A stretch of 35,935 nt of DNA from Selenomonadales bacterium. GTDB lineage: Bacteria > Bacillota > UBA994. Positions 4,220 through 21,180 of the stretch are shown here, piece by piece. Where the stretch lies: the NCBI GenBank assembly GCA_018335585.1, contig JAGXRZ010000022.1, positions 1 to 35,935 of the forward strand. Direction: 5' to 3'. Below the pieces are notes generated by a model. That model had not been told where the DNA came from, made no database searches, and saw only the letters and a program-made list of their open reading frames with translations. The position numbers and the translations under genes were made by a program. Position 1 is the first letter of the stretch. Each line of letters starts with the position of its first letter.

Positions 4220-4927
4220 ATGCTTAAGCTTGTTTTGTGGGAACTGCAGGAATATCGCGGCGTGGCTATGAAGATGATGTCTGGGATCTTTGCTGTCGCG
4301 GTGGTCGTGTCATTCACTGGTCACCTGGTTTTTGGTGCGGCTAGCGAGCGGGTAGTGGAGGGATGTCGCTTACTGCTAGTCGGTGCGCTCGCGGGAAATG
4401 CGGTTGCGCTGCACGTTTCCTACTTTAGCTTTAACTTGCCCGGCATTGAGGCTGGCGCAAACACCTTGATGCTGCACGCTCCGGTGGCGGCGTGGCGTGT
4501 CCTTGTGGCGAAACAAGTGGCCGCGCTTCCTGTGCTTGTCCTCTACCTAGTCACCGATACCGCGCTTACACTCGTGACGGGTTACGAGCATCTGCTCCCG
4601 CTGTACGACTGGCAGCGCATGCTCCTGTTCGCCTTGCTATATTTTTTAGGTGTAGCCTTGGCCTTGAACGCGCTTGTGGTCAGGACAGCAGCAAAAGCGA
4701 GAATTCGTTTTGGCAAAGCACTAGGCCTTATTGTTGATGGGGTCGTGTTTGCTGTTTCCTTTGCCTTGTTTGTTCTGCTTGTGTCGGGAGCTTACGTTCT
4801 TCCGGAGCTCGTAGCCGTAATGGCGGCGCCACTAGTGCAGGCTCTGCTCCTGCTTGTGTTGGCTAGCGCCCTAACTTGGCTCAACGCGCATCTCCTAGAG
4901 CACGTTGCCAACCGAATAGAAATCTAG
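4220..4927 (+). CDS. ABC-2-type permease subunit, paralogue of the gene at 2744
   Basis: 235 residues, about six membrane segments. I choose ATG 4220 over ATG 4193 because GGGGAGG lies at 4204-4210, nine bases ahead, and because translation from there (MLKLVLWELQEYRG) lines up with the start of the paralogue at 2744. It is the last gene of the GntR/ATPase/permease operon; 83 bases separate it from the DUF418 gene. Two similar permeases plus a dissimilar one under a single ATPase suggests a heteromeric exporter or two alternative pores. Confidence 0.72.
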   Translation: MLKLVLWELQEYRGVAMKMMSGIFAVAVVVSFTGHLVFGAASERVVEGCRLLLVGALAGNAVALHVSYFSFNLPGIEAGANTLMLHAPVAAWRVLVAKQVAALPVLVLYLVTDTALTLVTGYEHLLPLYDWQRMLLFALLYFLGVALALNALVVRTAAKARIRFGKALGLIVDGVVFAVSFALFVLLVSGAYVLPELVAVMAAPLVQALLLLVLASALTWLNAHLLEHVANRIEI

Positions 4928-5010
4928 ACGTGCCGTTTATGCAACTTTAGAAAGATTTACTCGTATTACCGGCTAGTGAGTTCTTAGTCTTGATGAGAGG
5001 GGTGCTGCGC

Positions 5011-6234
5011 GTGCAGAGACCAACCGGAGTCACGGAAAGGATAGAGGTCCTAGACATCATCCGAGGGTATGCGTTGTTTGGCGTTTTGCTCGTAAACATG
5101 GTGATGATTAACAGTCTGTTGATGGAGTTTGGTGCCGGCTTAGACCTCTTATCTCAACCCGCCCGCCTAGCGACTGCATGGGAGAGGACTACAGCGTGGA
5201 TTGTACAGATATTTTTCCAGGGCAAGTTCTACACCATCTTTGCTTTTCTCTTCGGCCTTGGGTTTTACTTGTTTTTAAACCGCAATGAGGCACAGGCGGG
5301 GACAAATCGGCGCCTGTTTGTGCGTAGAGTGTCAATACTCCTGGCAATTGGCCTGTTGCATATGATTTTCATCTGGTGGGGCGATGTGCTCTTCACTTAT
5401 GCGTTAATTGGCTTCCTGCTTATGCTGTTTCGCACCGCTAGTTTCGGCCAGATTCGCGCCTGGGCTACGGGGCTACTGCTCATCTCCTTTGCCCTGCTTC
5501 CCTTATCTGTTTTCATGGCGGCTCCGCAGTGGGCAGAAGGTGGCGCCGCATTGGAGGCAATGGCTCCTTTCCTTGAACAAGCTCGAGCTGTCTACCAAGA
5601 GGGGACTTATTGGGAATTAGTAGTACACCGCTGGCGCTACGAGTTTCTAGGCGTCCTGGTAAACGCAATTGCCATGATTCCCCGCATCCTCGGCTTATTC
5701 CTTGTCGGGCTCTATGTAGGAAAACTCGGCATCTTCCAGCGCGTGGCTGACCATTTGCCGCTGATTGCGCGGGCGAGAACCATAGGCTTGGTAGGCGGGG
5801 GGCTACTTACCCTGGCGCATGTCGGCTTACAGCTCGGCATCTTAGAGGGCTACCTAACGCCGGTAGCTTCTTCGGCGGCGTCTATGTTGCTCAGGGAAGT
5901 AAGCACGCCGCTGATTTCACTTTTCTACGTGACATGCATTATCGGCATCTGGCACAGTGGAGCGTTGTCGGGCGTATTCTCAGGTTTGGCCACGCTTGGC
6001 CGCATGGCGCTCACCAATTACCTCGTGCAGTGTGTCGTCCTCGCTTGGTTATTCTACGGGCATGGGCTTGGACTCATGGGGATGAGCATCGCCTACATGC
6101 CGGCCATAGCGCTTGCCATATACGTAGCGCAAATCGCGTTGAGCCGCTTTTGGCTTGAGCGCTACAATCAAGGCCCAGCCGAGTGGGTGTGGCGGCGTCT
6201 AACCTATGGTACGTCCACTAGCAGCTCTATTTGA
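5011..6234 (+). CDS. DUF418 family integral membrane protein (YeiB/YrkO-like)
   Basis: 407 residues with roughly ten membrane segments. The N-terminal RIEVLDIIRGYALFGVLLVNM is the hallmark opening of this family, and the C-terminal third, with its LGRMALTNYLVQ stretch, carries the DUF418 domain. Members are of unknown function and related by fold to acyltransferase-3 membrane proteins. The start is GTG 5011, six bases after GAGAGGGGTG; the in-frame ATG 4993 has no good site. The S9 peptidase follows, its ribosome binding site overlapping this stop codon, so the two are probably co-transcribed. Confidence 0.85.
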   Translation: MQRPTGVTERIEVLDIIRGYALFGVLLVNMVMINSLLMEFGAGLDLLSQPARLATAWERTTAWIVQIFFQGKFYTIFAFLFGLGFYLFLNRNEAQAGTNRRLFVRRVSILLAIGLLHMIFIWWGDVLFTYALIGFLLMLFRTASFGQIRAWATGLLLISFALLPLSVFMAAPQWAEGGAALEAMAPFLEQARAVYQEGTYWELVVHRWRYEFLGVLVNAIAMIPRILGLFLVGLYVGKLGIFQRVADHLPLIARARTIGLVGGGLLTLAHVGLQLGILEGYLTPVASSAASMLLREVSTPLISLFYVTCIIGIWHSGALSGVFSGLATLGRMALTNYLVQCVVLAWLFYGHGLGLMGMSIAYMPAIALAIYVAQIALSRFWLERYNQGPAEWVWRRLTYGTSTSSSI

Positions 6235-13734: not shown

Positions 13735-13775
13735 AACGCCCGTTCCGTACGTAACACAACGTAGGGACGGGCGTT
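13735..13775 (+). terminator. Strong hairpin between the HAD gene and the ABC operon
   Basis: AACGCCCGTTCC (13735-13746) pairs with GGGACGGGCGTT (13764-13775) with one G-U pair, and TACGT (13748-13752) pairs with ACGTA (13759-13763) inside it, giving a stem of about 17 pairs with one bulge. Only three T follow, so termination may be incomplete. It lies seven bases after the HAD stop and just before the next gene's ribosome binding site. Confidence 0.65.
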
Positions 13776-13792
13776 TGAGAAGGAGTGAAGTT

Positions 13793-14707
13793 GTGAGTAA
13801 GATTATCGAAGTCGCGGGCCTAACAAAGAGCTATGGCCAAGTGCATGCTGTGCGCGGCATAGACTTCTACGTCGAGGAAGGCGCCTTTTTTGCCTTCCTT
13901 GGCCCAAACGGCGCAGGGAAGTCAACGACCATTGACATCATTTGTACTTTGCTCGCGCCGGACGGCGGGGCAGTAACCGTCAACGGCTACACATTAGGCA
14001 AAGATGACGACCACATTCGCGCGCATATCGGGGTGGTGTTTCAGCACGGCATGCTCGACGAGCTACTGACGGTGCGCGAGAATCTTGCATTGCGCGCTAG
14101 CTTTTACGGGTTTTCAGGGGCGAAGCTACGAGAACAAGTACAGCAGGCCGCACAAGCCGCCGAGGTCGAGGACTTCCTGACGCGGCCTTATGGCAAGCTC
14201 TCAGGTGGCCAAAAGCGACGCGCGGATATTGCGCGGGCGCTAGTACATACTCCCCGCGTTTTGTTTCTCGATGAGCCGACCGCAGGGCTTGACCCGCAGA
14301 CGCGCAAGCACGTTTGGCAGACTATCCGCAATCTCCAGCAGGAGCAGGGCATGACAGTTTTTATGACGACACACTACATGGAAGAGGCTGCTAATGCCGA
14401 TTACGTCGCTGTCATCAACCACGGCAAGATTCGCGCCAAAGGTCGTCCGGCAGAACTAAGGGAGCAGTACAGCAGCGACTTCCTGAAGCTGTCGTTCAAA
14501 GAGCTGGCGCCCTTAGAAGCTCTTCTCAGTAACGCCCAGGTAGATTACGAGGTTGTTGGGAAGCGCGTTGAAATCAAACTTCGGCGCACACTCGATGCCT
14601 TGCCCCTGCTCACACTCTGCGAAGCTCACTTAACTGGCTTTGAAGTCGTAAGCGGCAGTCTCGATGACGCCTTTATTGCCATTACGGGAGGGGAGTTGAG
14701 AGCATGA
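13793..14707 (+). CDS. ABC transporter ATP-binding protein (DrrA/multidrug type)
   Basis: 304 residues. P-loop GPNGAGKST, Q-loop in VVFQHGMLDELLTVREN, signature LSGGQKRR, Walker B VLFLDEPTAGLD, switch His in TTHYMEEA; the C-terminal 80 residues are the extra domain typical of DrrA-type exporter ATPases. GTG 13793 follows AAGGAG by seven bases. It overlaps the permease gene by four bases (ATGA). The pair should form an ABC-2 exporter of lipophilic compounds; substrate unknown. Confidence 0.93.
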   Translation: MSKIIEVAGLTKSYGQVHAVRGIDFYVEEGAFFAFLGPNGAGKSTTIDIICTLLAPDGGAVTVNGYTLGKDDDHIRAHIGVVFQHGMLDELLTVRENLALRASFYGFSGAKLREQVQQAAQAAEVEDFLTRPYGKLSGGQKRRADIARALVHTPRVLFLDEPTAGLDPQTRKHVWQTIRNLQQEQGMTVFMTTHYMEEAANADYVAVINHGKIRAKGRPAELREQYSSDFLKLSFKELAPLEALLSNAQVDYEVVGKRVEIKLRRTLDALPLLTLCEAHLTGFEVVSGSLDDAFIAITGGELRA

Positions 14708-15561
14708 GCATGCTAAGCTTTACGGATCGCAACCTCAAGGTGTTCTTCCGCGACCGTTTATCGGTGTTCTTTTCGTTGCTCTCTGTCTTTATCACGATTG
14801 GCATGTATGTGCTGTTCCTGGGCGACATGATGCAGCGCAACGTCGGAGAAGCAGCGGGGGCACGATTTGTCGCCGACAGCTGGATAATGGCCGGGCTGCT
14901 CGCCATGGTCGCGGTTACGGCTAGCATGGGGGCGTTAGGAACCATGGTAGAGGATCGCAGCAAGAAGCTGCTGCGCGACTTCCGCGCCTCTCCCCTCAAG
15001 CGCTCCACCCTAGTTGGCGGCTATATGCTTGGCGCACTGGTTGTGGGTCTAGTGCTTTCACTGCTTACCTTTGTACTCGGGCAGCTTTATATAGTAGCTT
15101 ACGGCGGGCAGTTTCTTAGCCTCGCGAACGCGATGAGAGTCTTAGGCATTATGATGCTAAATGTCGCTTCCAGCACGGCGATGATGATCTTTATGGTTTC
15201 ATTCTTTAGCTCTACTAACGCCTATGGTGCCGCAGCCTCCGTCCTAGGTGCGCTGATTGGGTTTTTGACGGGAATATATGTGCCTATTGGCGTATTGCCT
15301 GCAGGGGTGCAATACGCAGTCAAGCTCTTTCCTCCCTCCCACGGCGCGGCACTATTCCGTCAAGTGATGATGGAGGATGCCATGGCGCAAGTTTTCGCCG
15401 GAGCTCCGGCACAGGTCCTATCAGACTTTAGGCGTGGCTTTGGGGTAGTATTCGAGTATGGCGGCGTAACGGCCGACACCACGACGCACGTCCTAGTTCT
15501 CCTTGGCTCAACAGCCGTCTTCTTTGCGTTAGCAGTCTGGAACCTAACCCGCAAGTCCTGA
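14704..15561 (+). CDS. ABC-2-type permease partnered with the ATPase at 13793
   Basis: 285 residues with six predicted membrane helices. The N-terminus (FTDRNLKVFFRDRLSVFFSLLSVFITIGMYVLFLG) is the cytoplasmic-elbow/first-helix pattern of DrrB-like permeases, and the central MMLNVASSTAMMIFMVSFF, then LGALIGFLTGIYVPIGVLP, is the family core. It is translationally coupled to the ATPase through ATGA. A hairpin repeat begins inside its stop codon. Confidence 0.9.
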   Translation: MSMLSFTDRNLKVFFRDRLSVFFSLLSVFITIGMYVLFLGDMMQRNVGEAAGARFVADSWIMAGLLAMVAVTASMGALGTMVEDRSKKLLRDFRASPLKRSTLVGGYMLGALVVGLVLSLLTFVLGQLYIVAYGGQFLSLANAMRVLGIMMLNVASSTAMMIFMVSFFSSTNAYGAAASVLGALIGFLTGIYVPIGVLPAGVQYAVKLFPPSHGAALFRQVMMEDAMAQVFAGAPAQVLSDFRRGFGVVFEYGGVTADTTTHVLVLLGSTAVFFALAVWNLTRKS

Positions 15562-15614: not shown

Positions 15615-16553
15615 CTAGCGCGTGGGCACAGGAGGTTGAACGGGCTGCGCGCCGGAAAAGAGAAACACTCCGTAGCGGAAGATGACATAGCACACCATCG
15701 CTACCACCCACATTTCCAGGACCATAATCGAGGCGGCCAGCAGGGGGATGCCACGCCCTGACTGATGCAGAAATGCATTCGCAGTCTTAAAAGCGATAGC
15801 GGCGATGACAAAAGGAAAAGTAAAGGCCGAAAAACTCGGCGCAAAGTGGAGTCTAAGGAGGCGCGGCATTGCACAGAGCACTCCGACCATGCTAAGAGTC
15901 GTGCAAGCGAGAAGCAAGTAAACAATGCCGATGTTTCGTTCCGGGAAACTTGCTAAGTAGCCAACCAAGGTAAGGCTACTAGGCGCGACTAAGATTGCGG
16001 TAGTCGGCAAGAGGGCGGCAGGTATTTGCTTAACCACCAGCAACCGATAAACTACCGCAGGCAGTAAGGTAAAGTAGGCGGCCAGCGCAAACCAAAACAG
16101 GGACTGCCCTAGTGGCCGCAAGCCAAAGCCTGTGGCGGTAATGCTAAATATACCTAGCCCGACATAGGGTATGAACCAGCTTGGCAATACGGCCTTAGCA
16201 GCAAAGGGCAAGGCGTGGCGGAGCGTGAAGGAGACAAGCAAACACACGTGCATAAGAAGTGCCGACCACCAGATGGCCAGCGCAAGGCTAGGCGCGTAAG
16301 GACGGATATAGGCAGTCAGCAGGGATAGCCCCATACTGAAGGTGGGTAACACTGCGGCAACAGGCGGCGTCCTAAGTGCCGTCCGCAGCTCCTCTGGATA
16401 TATGACTGCTTTTGCGACTAGGGCTACTAGAATCACTGCGGCCAAAACTCCGAGTGCATACCTATAGCTTGTGCCATACGACAGCAATAGGTTGCCAAGC
16501 GACGCTAGCCCGAGCATGAGTCCGGCGACAGGGTAGGGCAGTTTTTTCAGCAT
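15615..16553 (-). CDS. TDT/SLAC1-TehA family transporter
   Basis: 312 residues with about ten membrane helices (LPYPVAGLMLGLASLGNLLLSYG at the start, then LPTFSMGLSLLTAYI and WFIPYVGLGIFSITATGFGL). This arrangement matches the tellurite-resistance/dicarboxylate transporter family, whose members are anion channels or C4-dicarboxylate transporters; the substrate here cannot be read from sequence. ATG 16553 has a TAGGAGGGG site. It is 12 bases downstream of the C_GCAxxG_C_C gene, so the two are one operon. Confidence 0.85.
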   Translation of the reverse strand: MLKKLPYPVAGLMLGLASLGNLLLSYGTSYRYALGVLAAVILVALVAKAVIYPEELRTALRTPPVAAVLPTFSMGLSLLTAYIRPYAPSLALAIWWSALLMHVCLLVSFTLRHALPFAAKAVLPSWFIPYVGLGIFSITATGFGLRPLGQSLFWFALAAYFTLLPAVVYRLLVVKQIPAALLPTTAILVAPSSLTLVGYLASFPERNIGIVYLLLACTTLSMVGVLCAMPRLLRLHFAPSFSAFTFPFVIAAIAFKTANAFLHQSGRGIPLLAASIMVLEMWVVAMVCYVIFRYGVFLFSGAQPVQPPVPTR

Positions 16554-16565
16554 GGCAGTCCCCTC

Positions 16566-17048
16566 CTACGCCTGTGGATGTGGCGTAGCTTGCACGCGCA
16601 GCGCGACTTCAGGGTCGTCTAACAACTGCTCGGCGACCCAAGCGGTAACCTCACCCGTAATCTTGACACAATGCGCTTTGCGCTCAGCGCTCGCAAAGTC
16701 ATAGTCTTTGATAATCACTCTACAGCAAGTGCTGCCGTAGAGCGCTTTAACGTGGTCATGCAACCCAGCCGCAACCGGAAACATGCGCTCGTGCATAGGC
16801 TCGCCGTGGTTGCGGCCATAGGCCATGCCTAGTGCCATCGCTCCGCCGCTGATGGCACCGCATAAGCACTTAGACTTGCCTATCCCAATCGGGAACGCAG
16901 ATGCTAACTTGGTCACTTCCTTTGGCAGTGGCCAACCCAAAAGTTCGTTGATAGCGTGCACCACTGCTTCGGAACAGAAGAACTCGCCCCGCCGAAAATA
17001 CCCTTCTGCCTTTTCTCTTGCCGTAACGACCACTTGAGTTTTTTCCAT
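16566..17048 (-). CDS. C_GCAxxG_C_C family protein
   Basis: 160 residues. Conserved cysteines are C25 (FFCSEAV), C61 and C63 (CLCGAISGG), C108-C109 and C127, the spacing that names this family. The cysteines probably hold a metal or redox cofactor; members are often in anaerobes, sometimes as split-soret-like or redox proteins, but the function is not established. ATG 17048 follows GGAGGAGG by about eight bases; an upstream ATG at 17084 precedes that site and is unlikely. First gene of a unit with the TDT transporter. Confidence 0.85.
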   Translation of the reverse strand: MEKTQVVVTAREKAEGYFRRGEFFCSEAVVHAINELLGWPLPKEVTKLASAFPIGIGKSKCLCGAISGGAMALGMAYGRNHGEPMHERMFPVAAGLHDHVKALYGSTCCRVIIKDYDFASAERKAHCVKITGEVTAWVAEQLLDDPEVALRVQATPHPQA

Positions 17049-17082
17049 TACACATTCCTCCTCCAAGAATTTGACCCAGTCC

Positions 17083-17110
17083 ATTATATAACAAAATCAA
17101 ATAGATACAA
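17083..17110 (-). promoter_or_regulatory. Candidate promoter of the C_GCAxxG_C_C/TDT unit
   Basis: On the minus strand a perfect TATAAT (17088-17083) is preceded at 16 bases by TTGTAT (17110-17105). It lies 35 bases ahead of the ATG at 17048 and is AT-rich. The -10 is convincing and the -35 only partial. Confidence 0.55.
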
Positions 17111-17159: not shown

Positions 17160-17188
17160 TTGACACCGCGGGTCGCGAGTGCTATTGT
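17160..17188 (+). promoter_or_regulatory. Promoter of the membrane protein/regulator/ABC operon
   Basis: A perfect TTGACA (17160-17165) lies 17 bases from TATTGT (17183-17188). The GTG start is 38 bases further on. It is divergent from the C_GCAxxG_C_C promoter. Confidence 0.7.
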
Positions 17189-17195
17189 ATAAATA

Positions 17196-17212
17196 AGTTT
17201 ATGACATAAACT
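17196..17212 (+). promoter_or_regulatory. Candidate operator for the winged-helix regulator at 17880
   Basis: AGTTTAT (17196-17202) and ATAAACT (17206-17212) form a perfect inverted repeat around GAC. It sits at the expected transcription start and touches the ribosome binding site at 17213, so bound protein would block transcription. Assignment to the regulator encoded in the same operon is inference. Confidence 0.5.
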
Positions 17213-17226
17213 AAAGGAGTGATCTT

Positions 17227-17883
17227 GTGGCACATTCGGAGTACGACAAACTGATAGACGACCTCGGCGTTATCCGTACGGCCATCGAGAAAAGCAGCGG
17301 CATCTTTCGCTTTCTCCGCTTGTCGCGCGCTATGGGCTTAGTAGGGCTATGGAGCGGACTAGGCATAGTGGTGCTGTCGCTTGCGATGTACGCCATCGAC
17401 ATTCGATATGGCGGGCTAGTTACCGCGCCAGCGTTAGTGCGCGGGCTCCTGTATGGTCTGGTTGGGCTCTTTGTCTTGGCAGTTGGGATAGGCAAAATTA
17501 TGCTAGTCATGGCGCAAGCCAAGAAGAGCTATCGCGATATCACGGTGCTCCGGCTAATCAATGAGGTCTACACCCCGCAGACCCTCCCCATCCTCATTCC
17601 GAGTGCTGTCGCGCTCGGAGGCGTGTTTCTTTTCCTCGTCAGTCGCGGGCTCGGTGTTTACATTGCGCCAGTCATGTCCATCCTGTTTGGCCTAGTCTTC
17701 CTCGCCTTTCACAACATTTTTTATCTCAGGAGCATGTTATACAGCGCTGCTTGGATGATTTGTGCCGGGGTAGTGCTGCTTTTTCTTGCGGAAAGCGCGC
17801 ATGTTGCCCTTGGCGTGGCCGTTACCTTTGGGCTTGGTTTTATGGCTCTGTACATGGGGGATAGGATCGGCGATAAGGTATGA
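17227..17883 (+). CDS. Integral membrane protein of the wHTH/ABC cluster
   Basis: 218 residues. A short cytoplasmic N-terminus (YDKLIDDLGVIRTAIEKSSGIFRFLRLSR) is followed by six hydrophobic segments in three pairs. GTG 17227 has AAAGGAGTG just upstream. The stop overlaps the ATG of the winged-helix gene (ATGA), so the two are translated together. That tight coupling, and the first position in the operon, suggest a membrane sensor or an anti-regulator for the DNA-binding protein. I do not recognise a specific family with confidence. Confidence 0.65.
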   Translation: MAHSEYDKLIDDLGVIRTAIEKSSGIFRFLRLSRAMGLVGLWSGLGIVVLSLAMYAIDIRYGGLVTAPALVRGLLYGLVGLFVLAVGIGKIMLVMAQAKKSYRDITVLRLINEVYTPQTLPILIPSAVALGGVFLFLVSRGLGVYIAPVMSILFGLVFLAFHNIFYLRSMLYSAAWMICAGVVLLFLAESAHVALGVAVTFGLGFMALYMGDRIGDKV

Positions 17884-18215
17884 CGGAGCGCGATACAACC
17901 GAGTTTGCCTTAGACAGCGTAATCCACGAGAAAGCAAGGCTTGCTGTACTTACGTATCTGGCTAGCAGCCGCGTATCGAGTGTGCCTTTTACCGAGCTCC
18001 GTGATGAGCTCAACCTCACCGCCGGTAATTTGTCGGTGCAGCTGCGCACGCTTGAGCAGGCGGGTTATGTCGAAATTGACAAGCGCATCGTGGGGCGCAA
18101 GCCAGTCACCTCAGTAAGCCTGACTGAAAGGGGGCATACTGGACTGCGCGAATATGTCCGGAAAATGGAAATCATCATCCAAAAACTCAGTTCGCCACTC
18201 AGGCCAGATTCATAG
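17880..18215 (+). CDS. Winged-helix transcriptional regulator (HTH_34, MarR/ArsR-like)
   Basis: 111 residues. The helix-turn-helix reads VPFTELRDELNLTAGNLSVQLRTLEQAGYVEIDKRIVGRKPVTSVSLTERG, followed by a helical end that probably dimerises. This is the compact winged-helix type that controls adjacent ABC genes in many Bacillota. It is coupled by ATGA overlap to the membrane protein before it. After it come a hairpin repeat (18223-18251) and the ABC ATPase gene. It likely binds the palindrome at 17196-17212. Confidence 0.85.
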   Translation: MTERDTTEFALDSVIHEKARLAVLTYLASSRVSSVPFTELRDELNLTAGNLSVQLRTLEQAGYVEIDKRIVGRKPVTSVSLTERGHTGLREYVRKMEIIIQKLSSPLRPDS

Positions 18216-18222
18216 TCTACAT

Positions 18223-18251
18223 GAAGCAAAAAGCTCCGTCCCTTTTGCTTC
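18223..18251. repeat. Dispersed hairpin repeat, copy 3 (reverse orientation)
   Basis: The exact reverse complement of 15572-15600. Arms GAAGCAAAA (18223-18231) and TTTTGCTTC (18243-18251). It lies eight bases after the regulator's stop and 30 bases before the ABC ATPase start, inside what should be one operon. A second TTTGCTTC follows at 18256-18263. Confidence 0.85.
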
Positions 18252-18281
18252 ACCATTTGCTTCAACAAAGGAGGGAAAACC

Positions 18282-19139
18282 ATGATTAATGTGCAAGGCT
18301 TGAGCCACAGCTACAAGCGCGGCGGGCCGTTTGCGGTCAAAGACGCTACATTTGCTATCGACAAAGGGGAGATTCTCGGTTTTTTAGGCCCTTCCGGCGC
18401 GGGTAAGTCAACTACTCAAGGGGTGTTGACCGGCCTGTTGCCGCTCCAGACAGGTCAGGTACAAGTCGCAGGCTTCGATATGCGCTACCCAAAGCGTGCT
18501 CTCTACAACCGCTTAGGCGTGTCGTTTGAGCAGTCTAATGTTTATGCTAAGCTGACGGCGCTCGAGAATTTGCGGTTCTATGCGCGCCTCTTCGACGTGC
18601 CTACGCGCGACCCCATGGAGCTCTTGCGCCTAGTTGGGCTCGACAACGTAGCCGACAAGCGCACCGGCGAGTTCTCCAAAGGGATGAAGCACCGCCTAAC
18701 TTTCGCCCGCAGCTTAATTAACAGCCCTGACGTTTGGTTCCTTGACGAACCGACAACCGGCCTTGACCCGGCGATAGCGCACGAGATTAAAGGCATCATT
18801 AAAGACCAAAACAACAGGGGCGTTACCGTCTTCCTCACCACGCACAATATGCAGGTCGCGGATGAGCTTTGTCATCGCTTAGCGTTTATTGTGGACGGAG
18901 AGATTAAGCTCATTGACTCGCCGCGCAACCTTAAGCTTAAGTATGGCGAGCGCGTAGTCGAGGTCGAGTACCGCGACGACGACGAGACGCTTAAGCGCGA
19001 GCACTTTTCGCTCGGCGACCCAGAGGAACAGGCGCGATTAAACGCCCGCTTAGCAAGCGGCAACATTGAGACCATGCACACAAAAGAGGCCACGCTCGAG
19101 GAAATCTTTATCACCGTAACGGGCCGAGGTCTAAGCTAA
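18282..19139 (+). CDS. ABC transporter ATP-binding protein
   Basis: 285 residues. P-loop GPSGAGKST, signature FSKGMKHRL, Walker B VWFLDEPTTGLD, switch His in TTHNMQVADEL; a C-terminal extension of about 80 residues resembles that of DrrA-type ATPases. The start ATG 18282 follows AAAGGAGGG. Its stop TAA shares a base with the next ATG (TAATG). It should energise the two permeases that follow. The hairpin repeat ahead may uncouple its expression from the two regulatory genes. Confidence 0.92.
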   Translation: MINVQGLSHSYKRGGPFAVKDATFAIDKGEILGFLGPSGAGKSTTQGVLTGLLPLQTGQVQVAGFDMRYPKRALYNRLGVSFEQSNVYAKLTALENLRFYARLFDVPTRDPMELLRLVGLDNVADKRTGEFSKGMKHRLTFARSLINSPDVWFLDEPTTGLDPAIAHEIKGIIKDQNNRGVTVFLTTHNMQVADELCHRLAFIVDGEIKLIDSPRNLKLKYGERVVEVEYRDDDETLKREHFSLGDPEEQARLNARLASGNIETMHTKEATLEEIFITVTGRGLS

Positions 19140-20173
19140 TGCAAAAGACACTGGCCTTGTTCCTGCAAGACGCTAGGCTGTCCCTTAAGGGAATCTACTT
19201 TTACATGGAGGTTCTTATTGCGGTTGTCTTTGTAGCGGTAATGCTCTTTTTGGTGCCCGAGAACTTCGAGCGCACACAGACGCTGCACGTGCTTCTTGAG
19301 TTATCTGAGCCTGCCCGCTCCGCCGTGGCACAACAACTTGCCGCAGAGGGCGCTAACGTGGTGCCAGCTCCTTCCCGCACTGAGCTAGAGCAGGCGATGC
19401 AGCGTAACCGAATGAGCGGAGGCTTAGTTGTATCTTCCGTCGGCGAAAAGCTAAAGTTCGAGCTAGTGCTGCAAGGTCACGAAAGCGAGCGCATCCGACA
19501 ACTGCAGCAGGCCTCACTTGAGGGGGCGTTTCTGGCACGTCTACCGAACGTTCGCGACGCGCTTACGACTACTACGCTGCAAATAGGCGCGCCGCGCCTA
19601 AGTGACAAGCGAGGCATTGTCCCCATCTACTTGACGATGAACGTAGCGCTGATGGGGCTGTTTATTATCGCAGCTTATGTCTTTCTCGACAAAGAAGAAG
19701 GCGTAATCAAGGCGCTGTCCGTTTCGCCGCTGGCCCCTTGGCAGTACCTAGCCAGCAAGATGATGGTGATGCTGTGCCTTGGGTTAGCTAGTGCGTTAGT
19801 GGTAGTTACGTTCCTTGGCGGCACGCCTAACCTCCTTTGGCTGGTCGGACTAGTTGTAGCCAGCAACTTGTTTGGCTCGGCGCTCGGGCTCCTCATTGCC
19901 AGCTACTTTGACTCCATGGTGCAAGCAATGGAGGTTCTATACACGTCCATGGTTGTGCTAATGTTCGCAGCCTACTCCTATCTGATGCCCGCATTCTCAC
20001 CCTGGTGGGTGCGCATACTGCCTACGTACTCCATGCTGTTTGCCTTTCGCGAGACGTTGCTGGTAGGGGGAGACATGCGGTTGGTGCTTATGACCATGCT
20101 CATGCTCTTATTGCTTGGGGCCGTTGCCTTCTACGCAGCAAATCGCCGCTATCAACGAACCATAGCGGCGTAA
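19139..20173 (+). CDS. ABC-2-type permease (ABC2_membrane_3), first of a pair
   Basis: 344 residues: an N-terminal membrane helix (YFYMEVLIAVVFVAVMLFLV), an extracytoplasmic domain of about 130 residues, then five helices from about residue 162 (IVPIYLTMNVALMGLFIIAAYVFLDKEEGVIKALSVSPL, the hallmark stretch). This is the layout of large ABC-2 exporter permeases. Start ATG 19139 overlaps the ATPase stop by one base. Probably forms a heterodimer with the next gene product. Confidence 0.88.
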   Translation: MQKTLALFLQDARLSLKGIYFYMEVLIAVVFVAVMLFLVPENFERTQTLHVLLELSEPARSAVAQQLAAEGANVVPAPSRTELEQAMQRNRMSGGLVVSSVGEKLKFELVLQGHESERIRQLQQASLEGAFLARLPNVRDALTTTTLQIGAPRLSDKRGIVPIYLTMNVALMGLFIIAAYVFLDKEEGVIKALSVSPLAPWQYLASKMMVMLCLGLASALVVVTFLGGTPNLLWLVGLVVASNLFGSALGLLIASYFDSMVQAMEVLYTSMVVLMFAAYSYLMPAFSPWWVRILPTYSMLFAFRETLLVGGDMRLVLMTMLMLLLLGAVAFYAANRRYQRTIAA

Positions 20174-20184
20174 GGAGGACGAAC

Positions 20185-21180
20185 ATGAAGCGAATACTCT
20201 CTATTGCGCGGCGCGACCTAAAAAGCGGTCTGCGTGACTTTCTGGTAGTTTACCTTATGCTCGCTCCAGTGCTTTTCGCTTTACTTCTGCGCCTCTTTGC
20301 CGGTGGCGTTGCCGCAAGTCCGCTTAGGGTAGCAGTGTTCGAGGACGGCGCGGCGATAGCTGCTGAGCTGGCGACTTTTGCGCATGTCGAGCAGTTCCCC
20401 ACGCGCGACGCCCTTGTTGAGCGCGTGTTGCGCATTGACGATGTACTCGGCGTCGTGGCTACGCCGGCGGGGAAAGAAATCATAGCGCAAGGCAACGAAA
20501 TGCCCGGCGCGGATGCAGCGTTGCGGAACGTCTTGCATCGCCTCGGCAGAGAGGAGGGCGACTTGCCTGTTATTGTGGCAGTTAGCGACATAGGGTTCGC
20601 AGTATCGCCTCTGCTTCTCCAAGGGGGGCTCCTCTTGGTAATCATGACGACAGTGTTTGGTGGTATGCTTATCTTGCTTAACCTCATCGAAGAAAAGATG
20701 AGCAACACCCTAAGCGCTATGAACGTCACGCCCGCGAGCCGCACGGAGTTTATCCTGGGCAAGGGCTTGCTTGGCTTTCTTACGCCCGTGTTTGGGGGAA
20801 GCGTAGCTGTCTATATCCTAGGGTTTAGGGACTTTAACCTGGCCATGTTCTTAGTGAGCATCGTGAGCTTAGCGTTTATTAGCTTAATCGTCGGCTTCCT
20901 GATTGGCATCACCAATGACGAGCCTATCTCGGGCATTGCCGCCATGAAGGGCGTGTTTGTACCTGTCTTTGCCTCGGTGCTGGGGGCGATGTTCTTAGCC
21001 GAGCGCTGGCAGTTTGTCCTCTACTGGTCGCCGTTTTACTGGGGCTACCTCAGCATGAACGCGATTTTGCTGGGTGAGGCGACGTGGGGGCAAGTTCTGC
21101 AGAACAGCGCGTTTATCCTAGCCATAACCGGCATCGTCTTTGCCTCCCTGCGCCCGCGCATAGCGCGTGGACTACGTTAA
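20185..21180 (+). CDS. ABC-2-type permease (ABC2_membrane_3), second of a pair
   Basis: 331 residues with the same layout as its neighbour: one N-terminal helix, an outer domain of about 110 residues, then helices beginning LLLQGGLLLVIMTTVFGGMLILLNLIEEKMSNTLSAMNVTP. ATG 20185 is six bases after AAGGAGG (20172-20178), which itself covers the stop of the previous gene. It is the last gene of the cluster; its stop overlaps by four bases the stop of the convergent aldolase gene. Confidence 0.88.
   Translation: MKRILSIARRDLKSGLRDFLVVYLMLAPVLFALLLRLFAGGVAASPLRVAVFEDGAAIAAELATFAHVEQFPTRDALVERVLRIDDVLGVVATPAGKEIIAQGNEMPGADAALRNVLHRLGREEGDLPVIVAVSDIGFAVSPLLLQGGLLLVIMTTVFGGMLILLNLIEEKMSNTLSAMNVTPASRTEFILGKGLLGFLTPVFGGSVAVYILGFRDFNLAMFLVSIVSLAFISLIVGFLIGITNDEPISGIAAMKGVFVPVFASVLGAMFLAERWQFVLYWSPFYWGYLSMNAILLGEATWGQVLQNSAFILAITGIVFASLRPRIARGLR

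Follow-up and report, generated by a model that had tools for sequence, protein, structure and literature searches.

A membrane protein and an HTH_34 regulator encoded behind a conserved operator: a candidate membrane-coupled signalling pair in a Selenomonadales export operon

The 35,935 nt of Selenomonadales bacterium DNA analysed here (contig JAGXRZ010000022.1 of assembly GCA_018335585.1, hereafter the window) carry, on the forward strand between positions 17160 and 21180, a promoter and operator followed by five genes, which specify a polytopic membrane protein (MEM), a small winged-helix regulator (REG), an ATP-binding cassette (ABC) ATPase and two permeases. The reading that we moderately favour is a self-regulated export operon, in which REG would repress its own promoter and MEM would pass a signal from the membrane to REG. 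For a broader proposal, we put the chances at about even: that MEM and its HTH_34 regulator represent a widespread kind of membrane-coupled one-component signalling pair not described so far, which would stand as a third beside SdpI/SdpR and HAAS-PadR, and in which residue 48 of REG sets the outer operator base pair that is read.

The operon opens with a -35 hexamer, TTGACA (17160-17165), and, after a spacer of 17 nt, a -10 hexamer, TATTGT (17183-17188), which together match the consensus at 10 of 12 positions. Close to where the inferred transcript begins lies a perfect inverted repeat, AGTTTATG-A-CATAAACT (17196-17212), the arms of which (17196-17203 and 17205-17212) are 8 bases each with one base between them. 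A Shine-Dalgarno-like AAGGAG (17214-17219) precedes the GTG start codon of MEM (218 amino acids (aa), 17227-17883), and the ATG start codon of REG (111 aa, 17880-18215) overlaps the MEM stop codon (ATGA). The genes for the ATPase (18282-19139), permease 1 (19139-20173) and permease 2 (20185-21180) follow, so that all five open reading frames (ORFs) stand in the order given by the first-pass annotation of this DNA. That annotation had also described a perfect TTGACA promoter, which is present, and an inverted repeat of 7 bases at the transcription start, where the repeat stands and the arm length is corrected to 8. Its translational coupling of MEM and REG has the ATGA overlap as sole basis.

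Promoter-like sequences are no more frequent than expected by chance, with 4 found in a scan of the region and 2.5 expected from shuffled sequences. Both the promoter and the palindrome are common to all five aligned loci (the window and the related genomes G004, G002, G003 and G100), with TTGAC invariant and the TA and final T of the -10 hexamer kept; G100, from another family, retains both elements although its MEM is only ~40% identical. Shared in this way by five loci, including the distant G100, promoter and palindrome are, by this alignment, beyond chance. The 15-mer core of the operator, GTTTATGACATAAAC (17197-17211), is the sole match within the window with up to two mismatches allowed, and the perfect GTTTATNNNATAAAC occurs at a single site in the 2.34 Mb genome, at REG's own promoter, with one other place found when one mismatch is allowed. 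Binding of REG to the predicted operator at 17196-17212 is strongly supported on sequence grounds. A protein sitting on this operator, immediately 3' of the -10 hexamer and at the inferred start site, should obstruct RNA polymerase, and activation of the operon by REG is very improbable.

A genome scan using the MEM alignment found no relative, so a second scan was made with REG, and this retrieved 76 loci. Three with less than 500 nt of upstream sequence were dropped, and the remainder were counted as paired if an ORF with at least three transmembrane (TM) segments ended no more than 80 nt from the REG match, or overlapped it. Such an ORF was present in 61 of the 73 loci, compared with 25 of 360 control genes of the same loci in a similar test. 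By record title, the paired loci come from Bacillota, Spirochaetales, Caulobacter, Brevundimonas, Planctomycetota, Pedosphaera, Anaerolineae, Actinomadura, Nonomuraea, Longimicrobiales, Zixiibacteriota and a metagenome-assembled genome of a Thermoplasmatota archaeon. Plasmid records gave 31 matches, 24 of which were examined (ranks 1-20, 22-24 and 26), and at a looser distance limit 21 of these had an upstream ORF with at least three TM segments; where annotated, the plasmid MEM ORFs are mostly labelled 'hypothetical protein' and lie just before a 'transcriptional regulator'.

The genes downstream of the pair are varied. The gene directly after REG matches the ATPase in 22 of the 76 loci, while other downstream genes (Pfam was run on 20 of the 62 found) code for an M23 peptidase in Chloroflexota and a tyrosine phosphatase in Brevundimonas. 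With MEM kept beside REG and the next gene changing from locus to locus, the partner of MEM is more likely to be REG than the exporter, and the recurrence of the pair in many phyla beside different neighbours upholds the earlier view that the membrane protein belongs with the regulator. In Bacteroidota, the gene after the pair is that of CreD, an envelope protein of the inner membrane (L144, 1180-3455; L092). One locus is titled Pseudanabaena biceps (L071), but its REG is at near-zero branch length from that of Brevundimonas and it has the same kind of downstream phosphatase, so it is likely to be contamination and no cyanobacterial case is claimed.

Operators of a common type were found across these loci. 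The motif [CG]TTT[AG]N5[CT]AAA[CG] occurs before the MEM start (-120 to +15) in 36 of 60 loci and at 1 of 325 other ORF starts, with a mean of 0.12 in shuffled sequences, and this, together with the palindrome kept in the five aligned loci, bears out the claim that the cluster has its own operator. When all sets were scanned uniformly, the motif was found in 49 of 80 discovery loci, 14 of 20 loci from a phylum search and 9 of 12 plasmid loci, and in 3 of 12 further plasmid loci. Two operator types are seen, GTTT...AAAC in the clade of the window and CTTT...AAAG in most others, and they covary with residue 48 of REG, which sits in the sequence LT-x-GNLS, where the likely recognition helix begins (in the window an Ala, codon 18021-18023, within LTAGNLSVQLR). 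Ala or Gly at this position goes with GTTT...AAAC and Asp with CTTT...AAAG. The G.C operators also occur with Ser, Arg (6) and Lys (1), and Arg and Lys are always found with G.C, as expected from the common contacts of arginine with guanine and of aspartate with cytosine. The discovery set first suggested the rule 'Asp = C.G, otherwise G.C', which holds there for 48 of 48 loci, and the other sets were scanned afterwards, giving 23 of 24 further loci, or 22 of 23 without a duplicate (L117, on the same contig as discovery locus L073); two loci, L094 and L095, have an identical REG core. These counts leave out loci lacking the motif and three mixed sites (L048, L126 and L157). Position 48 is the only REG column that fully separates the two operator types in the discovery set, and we infer that this residue contacts the outermost operator base pair. 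Another candidate for the specificity residue, position 54 (Gln/His), was rejected, as His and Gln each occur with both types.

The structure model of MEM (mean predicted local distance difference test score, pLDDT, of 86.5) has an N-terminal helix (residues 3-23), probably cytoplasmic, and then six TM helices, in keeping with the six-helix protein first described. MEM matched no Pfam family at E ≤ 1, and hence not the SdpI model, and no NCBIfam family; Pfam searches with 16 MEM relatives gave no SdpI family domain at E ≤ 0.1. Nor was a HAAS domain (DUF1700, DUF1129 or DUF1048) detected in MEM at E ≤ 1, and none is listed for its relatives. Two alignments were built, one of 16 window-type sequences and the other of 31 of the 61 MEM ORFs of the motif set, from other phyla; their profiles align over 198 columns (hhalign probability 97.4), linking MEM to its counterparts in those phyla. 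The single model made for the second type (mean pLDDT 93.2) has the same N-terminal helix and six TM helices. Among the window-type sequences, the best conserved parts are the first loop after TM1, with a YG...P motif (mean score 0.48), the N-terminal helix (0.44) and TM5 (0.44). Foldseek gave no match at E ≤ 0.001 for either model. Comparison with SatP chains gave Z scores of 6.3-6.7 for the first model (root-mean-square deviation 5.4-5.5 over 133-135 residues) and 7.5-7.9 for the second (4.6-4.8 over 154-158 residues), both below the tool's reliable level, and SatP is a weak lead only for the fold of MEM.

In the mechanism we propose, a dimer of REG would bind the palindrome at the transcript start, with residue 48, at the N-terminal end of the recognition helix, reading the outermost base pair, and would repress the single promoter of the MEM-REG-ATPase-permease-permease operon. 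The presumably cytoplasmic N-terminal helix of MEM would probably serve to dock REG. An envelope signal, for example a membrane-active compound or a lipid imbalance, may then cause MEM to withdraw or inactivate REG, which would raise the output of MEM, REG and the ABC-2 exporter until the exporter had cleared the inducing cause and repression could return.

Searches of 149 related genomes gave 14 matches to REG, that of the genome itself included, and five rows for MEM, which include its own genome and one false match (in G047, antisense inside another gene, and dropped). Gene content at the relatives' loci was read by tblastn, and a complete MEM is present in the window, G004 and G100. Of 12 clusters in which a close REG is followed directly by an ATPase with 48% identity or more (L038, L040, L042, L046, L048 and L053 among them), 8 carry an intact MEM, 3 lack it or have it in reduced form and 1 cannot be read because the contig ends there, so the membrane protein is not lost from most relatives that keep the regulator and ABC genes.

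A number of observations weigh against signalling by MEM, against the wider class, or against the operator rule. In G002, MEM is an in-frame remnant of 50 codons (aligning with portions of residues 31-48 and 192-218), with the ATGA at its junction with REG kept, and in G003 MEM is gone, leaving REG almost directly after the operator, with the ABC genes kept. These two congeners thus retain promoter, operator, REG and ABC genes after deletion of MEM, which means that REG is not dependent on MEM everywhere. In G062, no MEM match was found within the 13 kb stretch that holds REG and the ABC genes. Among the 20 loci of the phylum search, an upstream ORF with at least three TM segments was present in only 7, with 6 not evaluated, and a clade of HTH_34 regulators with Arg-48 is without MEM, having a G-type operator just upstream and then, directly, a protein of 1185-1204 aa (L032, 5600-9497; L033, 5764-9634; L034, 5798-9671). 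In the uniform scan, 31 of the 80 discovery loci showed no motif. The residue rule has one clear exception (L128), and the three mixed operator sites all have Ala-48. A REG tree built without the helix columns shows 5 changes of residue 48 and 4 of the operator, and well-supported branches carry just one independent residue-operator pair, so a pair test cannot reach significance; the association of residue 48 with the operator rests on few independent switches.

Both MEM-less congeners have, divergently upstream of the REG-ABC operon, a gene pair for a Penicillinase_R (BlaI-like) repressor and a Peptidase_M56 (BlaR1-like) protein (L024, 7991-9602 (+); L023, 2320-3646 (+)), identified by Pfam for the pair of G002 and, for G003, from its ORFs and a search with PF03965. 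This may represent the replacement of one membrane sensor by another, and counts as one event since G002 and G003 (loci L037 and L036) are sisters in the REG tree. A further loss of MEM is seen at L027, where only an apparent C-terminal remnant remains upstream of the regulator (4707-5021 (-)).

The congeners that keep REG, promoter and operator without an intact MEM lend some credit to another explanation, that MEM serves the exporter as an accessory or immunity protein, or itself binds the toxic compound, and shares its operon with an ordinary autorepressor to which it sends no signal. The location of MEM in an export operon fits this, as does SdpI, which itself joins immunity and signalling. 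MEM adjoins REG even where there is no ABC gene, however, and with an ATPase next after REG in just 22 of 76 loci we regard an exporter accessory as unlikely, about one chance in a handful.

REG is a clear member of HTH_34 (PF13601; 85.8 bits, gathering cut-off 27) and the only match to that family reported in its genome. The closest solved structure by sequence is that of PH1061 (1ub9), with a profile match over positions 10-99. It also exceeds the cut-off of the ArsR HTH_5 family (PF01022; 27.6 bits, cut-off 22), far under its HTH_34 score, and reaches neither that of the NCBIfam ArsR/SmtB model (26.7, cut-off 55) nor that of PadR (PF03551; 17.1 bits, cut-off 27). The HTH_5 match suits a different account, in which a ligand in the cytoplasm is detected by REG itself, as is the case for ArsR and MarR proteins, and MEM is independent, kept upstream mainly for the coupled translation of REG; the 50-codon in-frame leader of G002, still ending in ATGA, and the existence of MEM-less regulators point the same way. 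Conservation of one MEM architecture and profile across phyla goes beyond the needs of a mere leader, and we hold direct sensing to be improbable, somewhat more so than an accessory role for MEM.

The ATPase is nearest to DrrA, although its score for that model (TIGR01188; 228) is below the cut-off of 312.45. Both permeases are of the ABC-2 type (ABC2_membrane_3), and permease 1 has a weak likeness to FLQE3 (PF24686; 33.6, cut-off 60, not reached). Adjoining the cluster are a second DrrA-like ABC ATPase/permease pair (13775-15561), and then a divergent SLAC1/TehA-like transporter with a C_GCAxxG_C_C redox protein (15615-17084).

If the preferred reading of MEM as the membrane partner of REG is correct, an unnamed membrane protein beside 'transcriptional regulator' genes in many phyla would gain a role. 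The operator rule would supply a predicted binding site, a specificity residue and a partner, all at once testable, and operators, hence target genes, would become predictable for many unannotated regulators of the MEM-paired HTH_34 kind. Such pairs would provide a simple envelope control, free of histidine kinases, of exporters and of wall or envelope genes such as those for CreD and M23 peptidases. In the literature searched, no paper was found on an operator, a membrane partner or a residue-48 rule for HTH_34 (PF13601), and none there mentions HTH34 or PF13601 by name.

The arrangement was described at first as one without an established name, a point that needs correcting: named precedents exist, although the proteins of the window matched neither family in the tests applied. 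In Bacillus subtilis, SdpR is an autorepressor encoded in one operon with the polytopic membrane protein SdpI, which when signalled sequesters SdpR at the membrane (PMC1626106), and sdpRI codes for its repressor together with a membrane protein that acts as an anti-toxin (PMC6818787). The likeness lies in one operon that combines a small winged-helix regulator with a polytopic membrane protein, with autorepression here suggested by the operator. The window differs in that the order of the MEM and REG genes is reversed, an ABC exporter follows and REG belongs to HTH_34; moreover, no toxin gene was recognised among the ten neighbouring window proteins scanned. The HAAS-PadR systems (PMC11237479) couple by gene neighbourhood a protein with a membrane-linked helical domain to a standalone winged-helix regulator, and were proposed as an alternative to two-component systems. 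MEM and REG resemble them in this neighbourhood coupling, but MEM begins with a single long helix ahead of its membrane part and has no DUF1700, DUF1129 or DUF1048, and REG scores below the PadR cut-off. The exporter genes are likewise related to the DrrA-type and FLQE exporters, the ATPase being most like drrA and permease 1 weakly like FLQE3, with the differences that they fall below the curated cut-offs and include two ABC-2 permeases. By analogy, the MEM-REG module may be read as working like SdpI/SdpR and HAAS-PadR, but with proteins drawn from other families.

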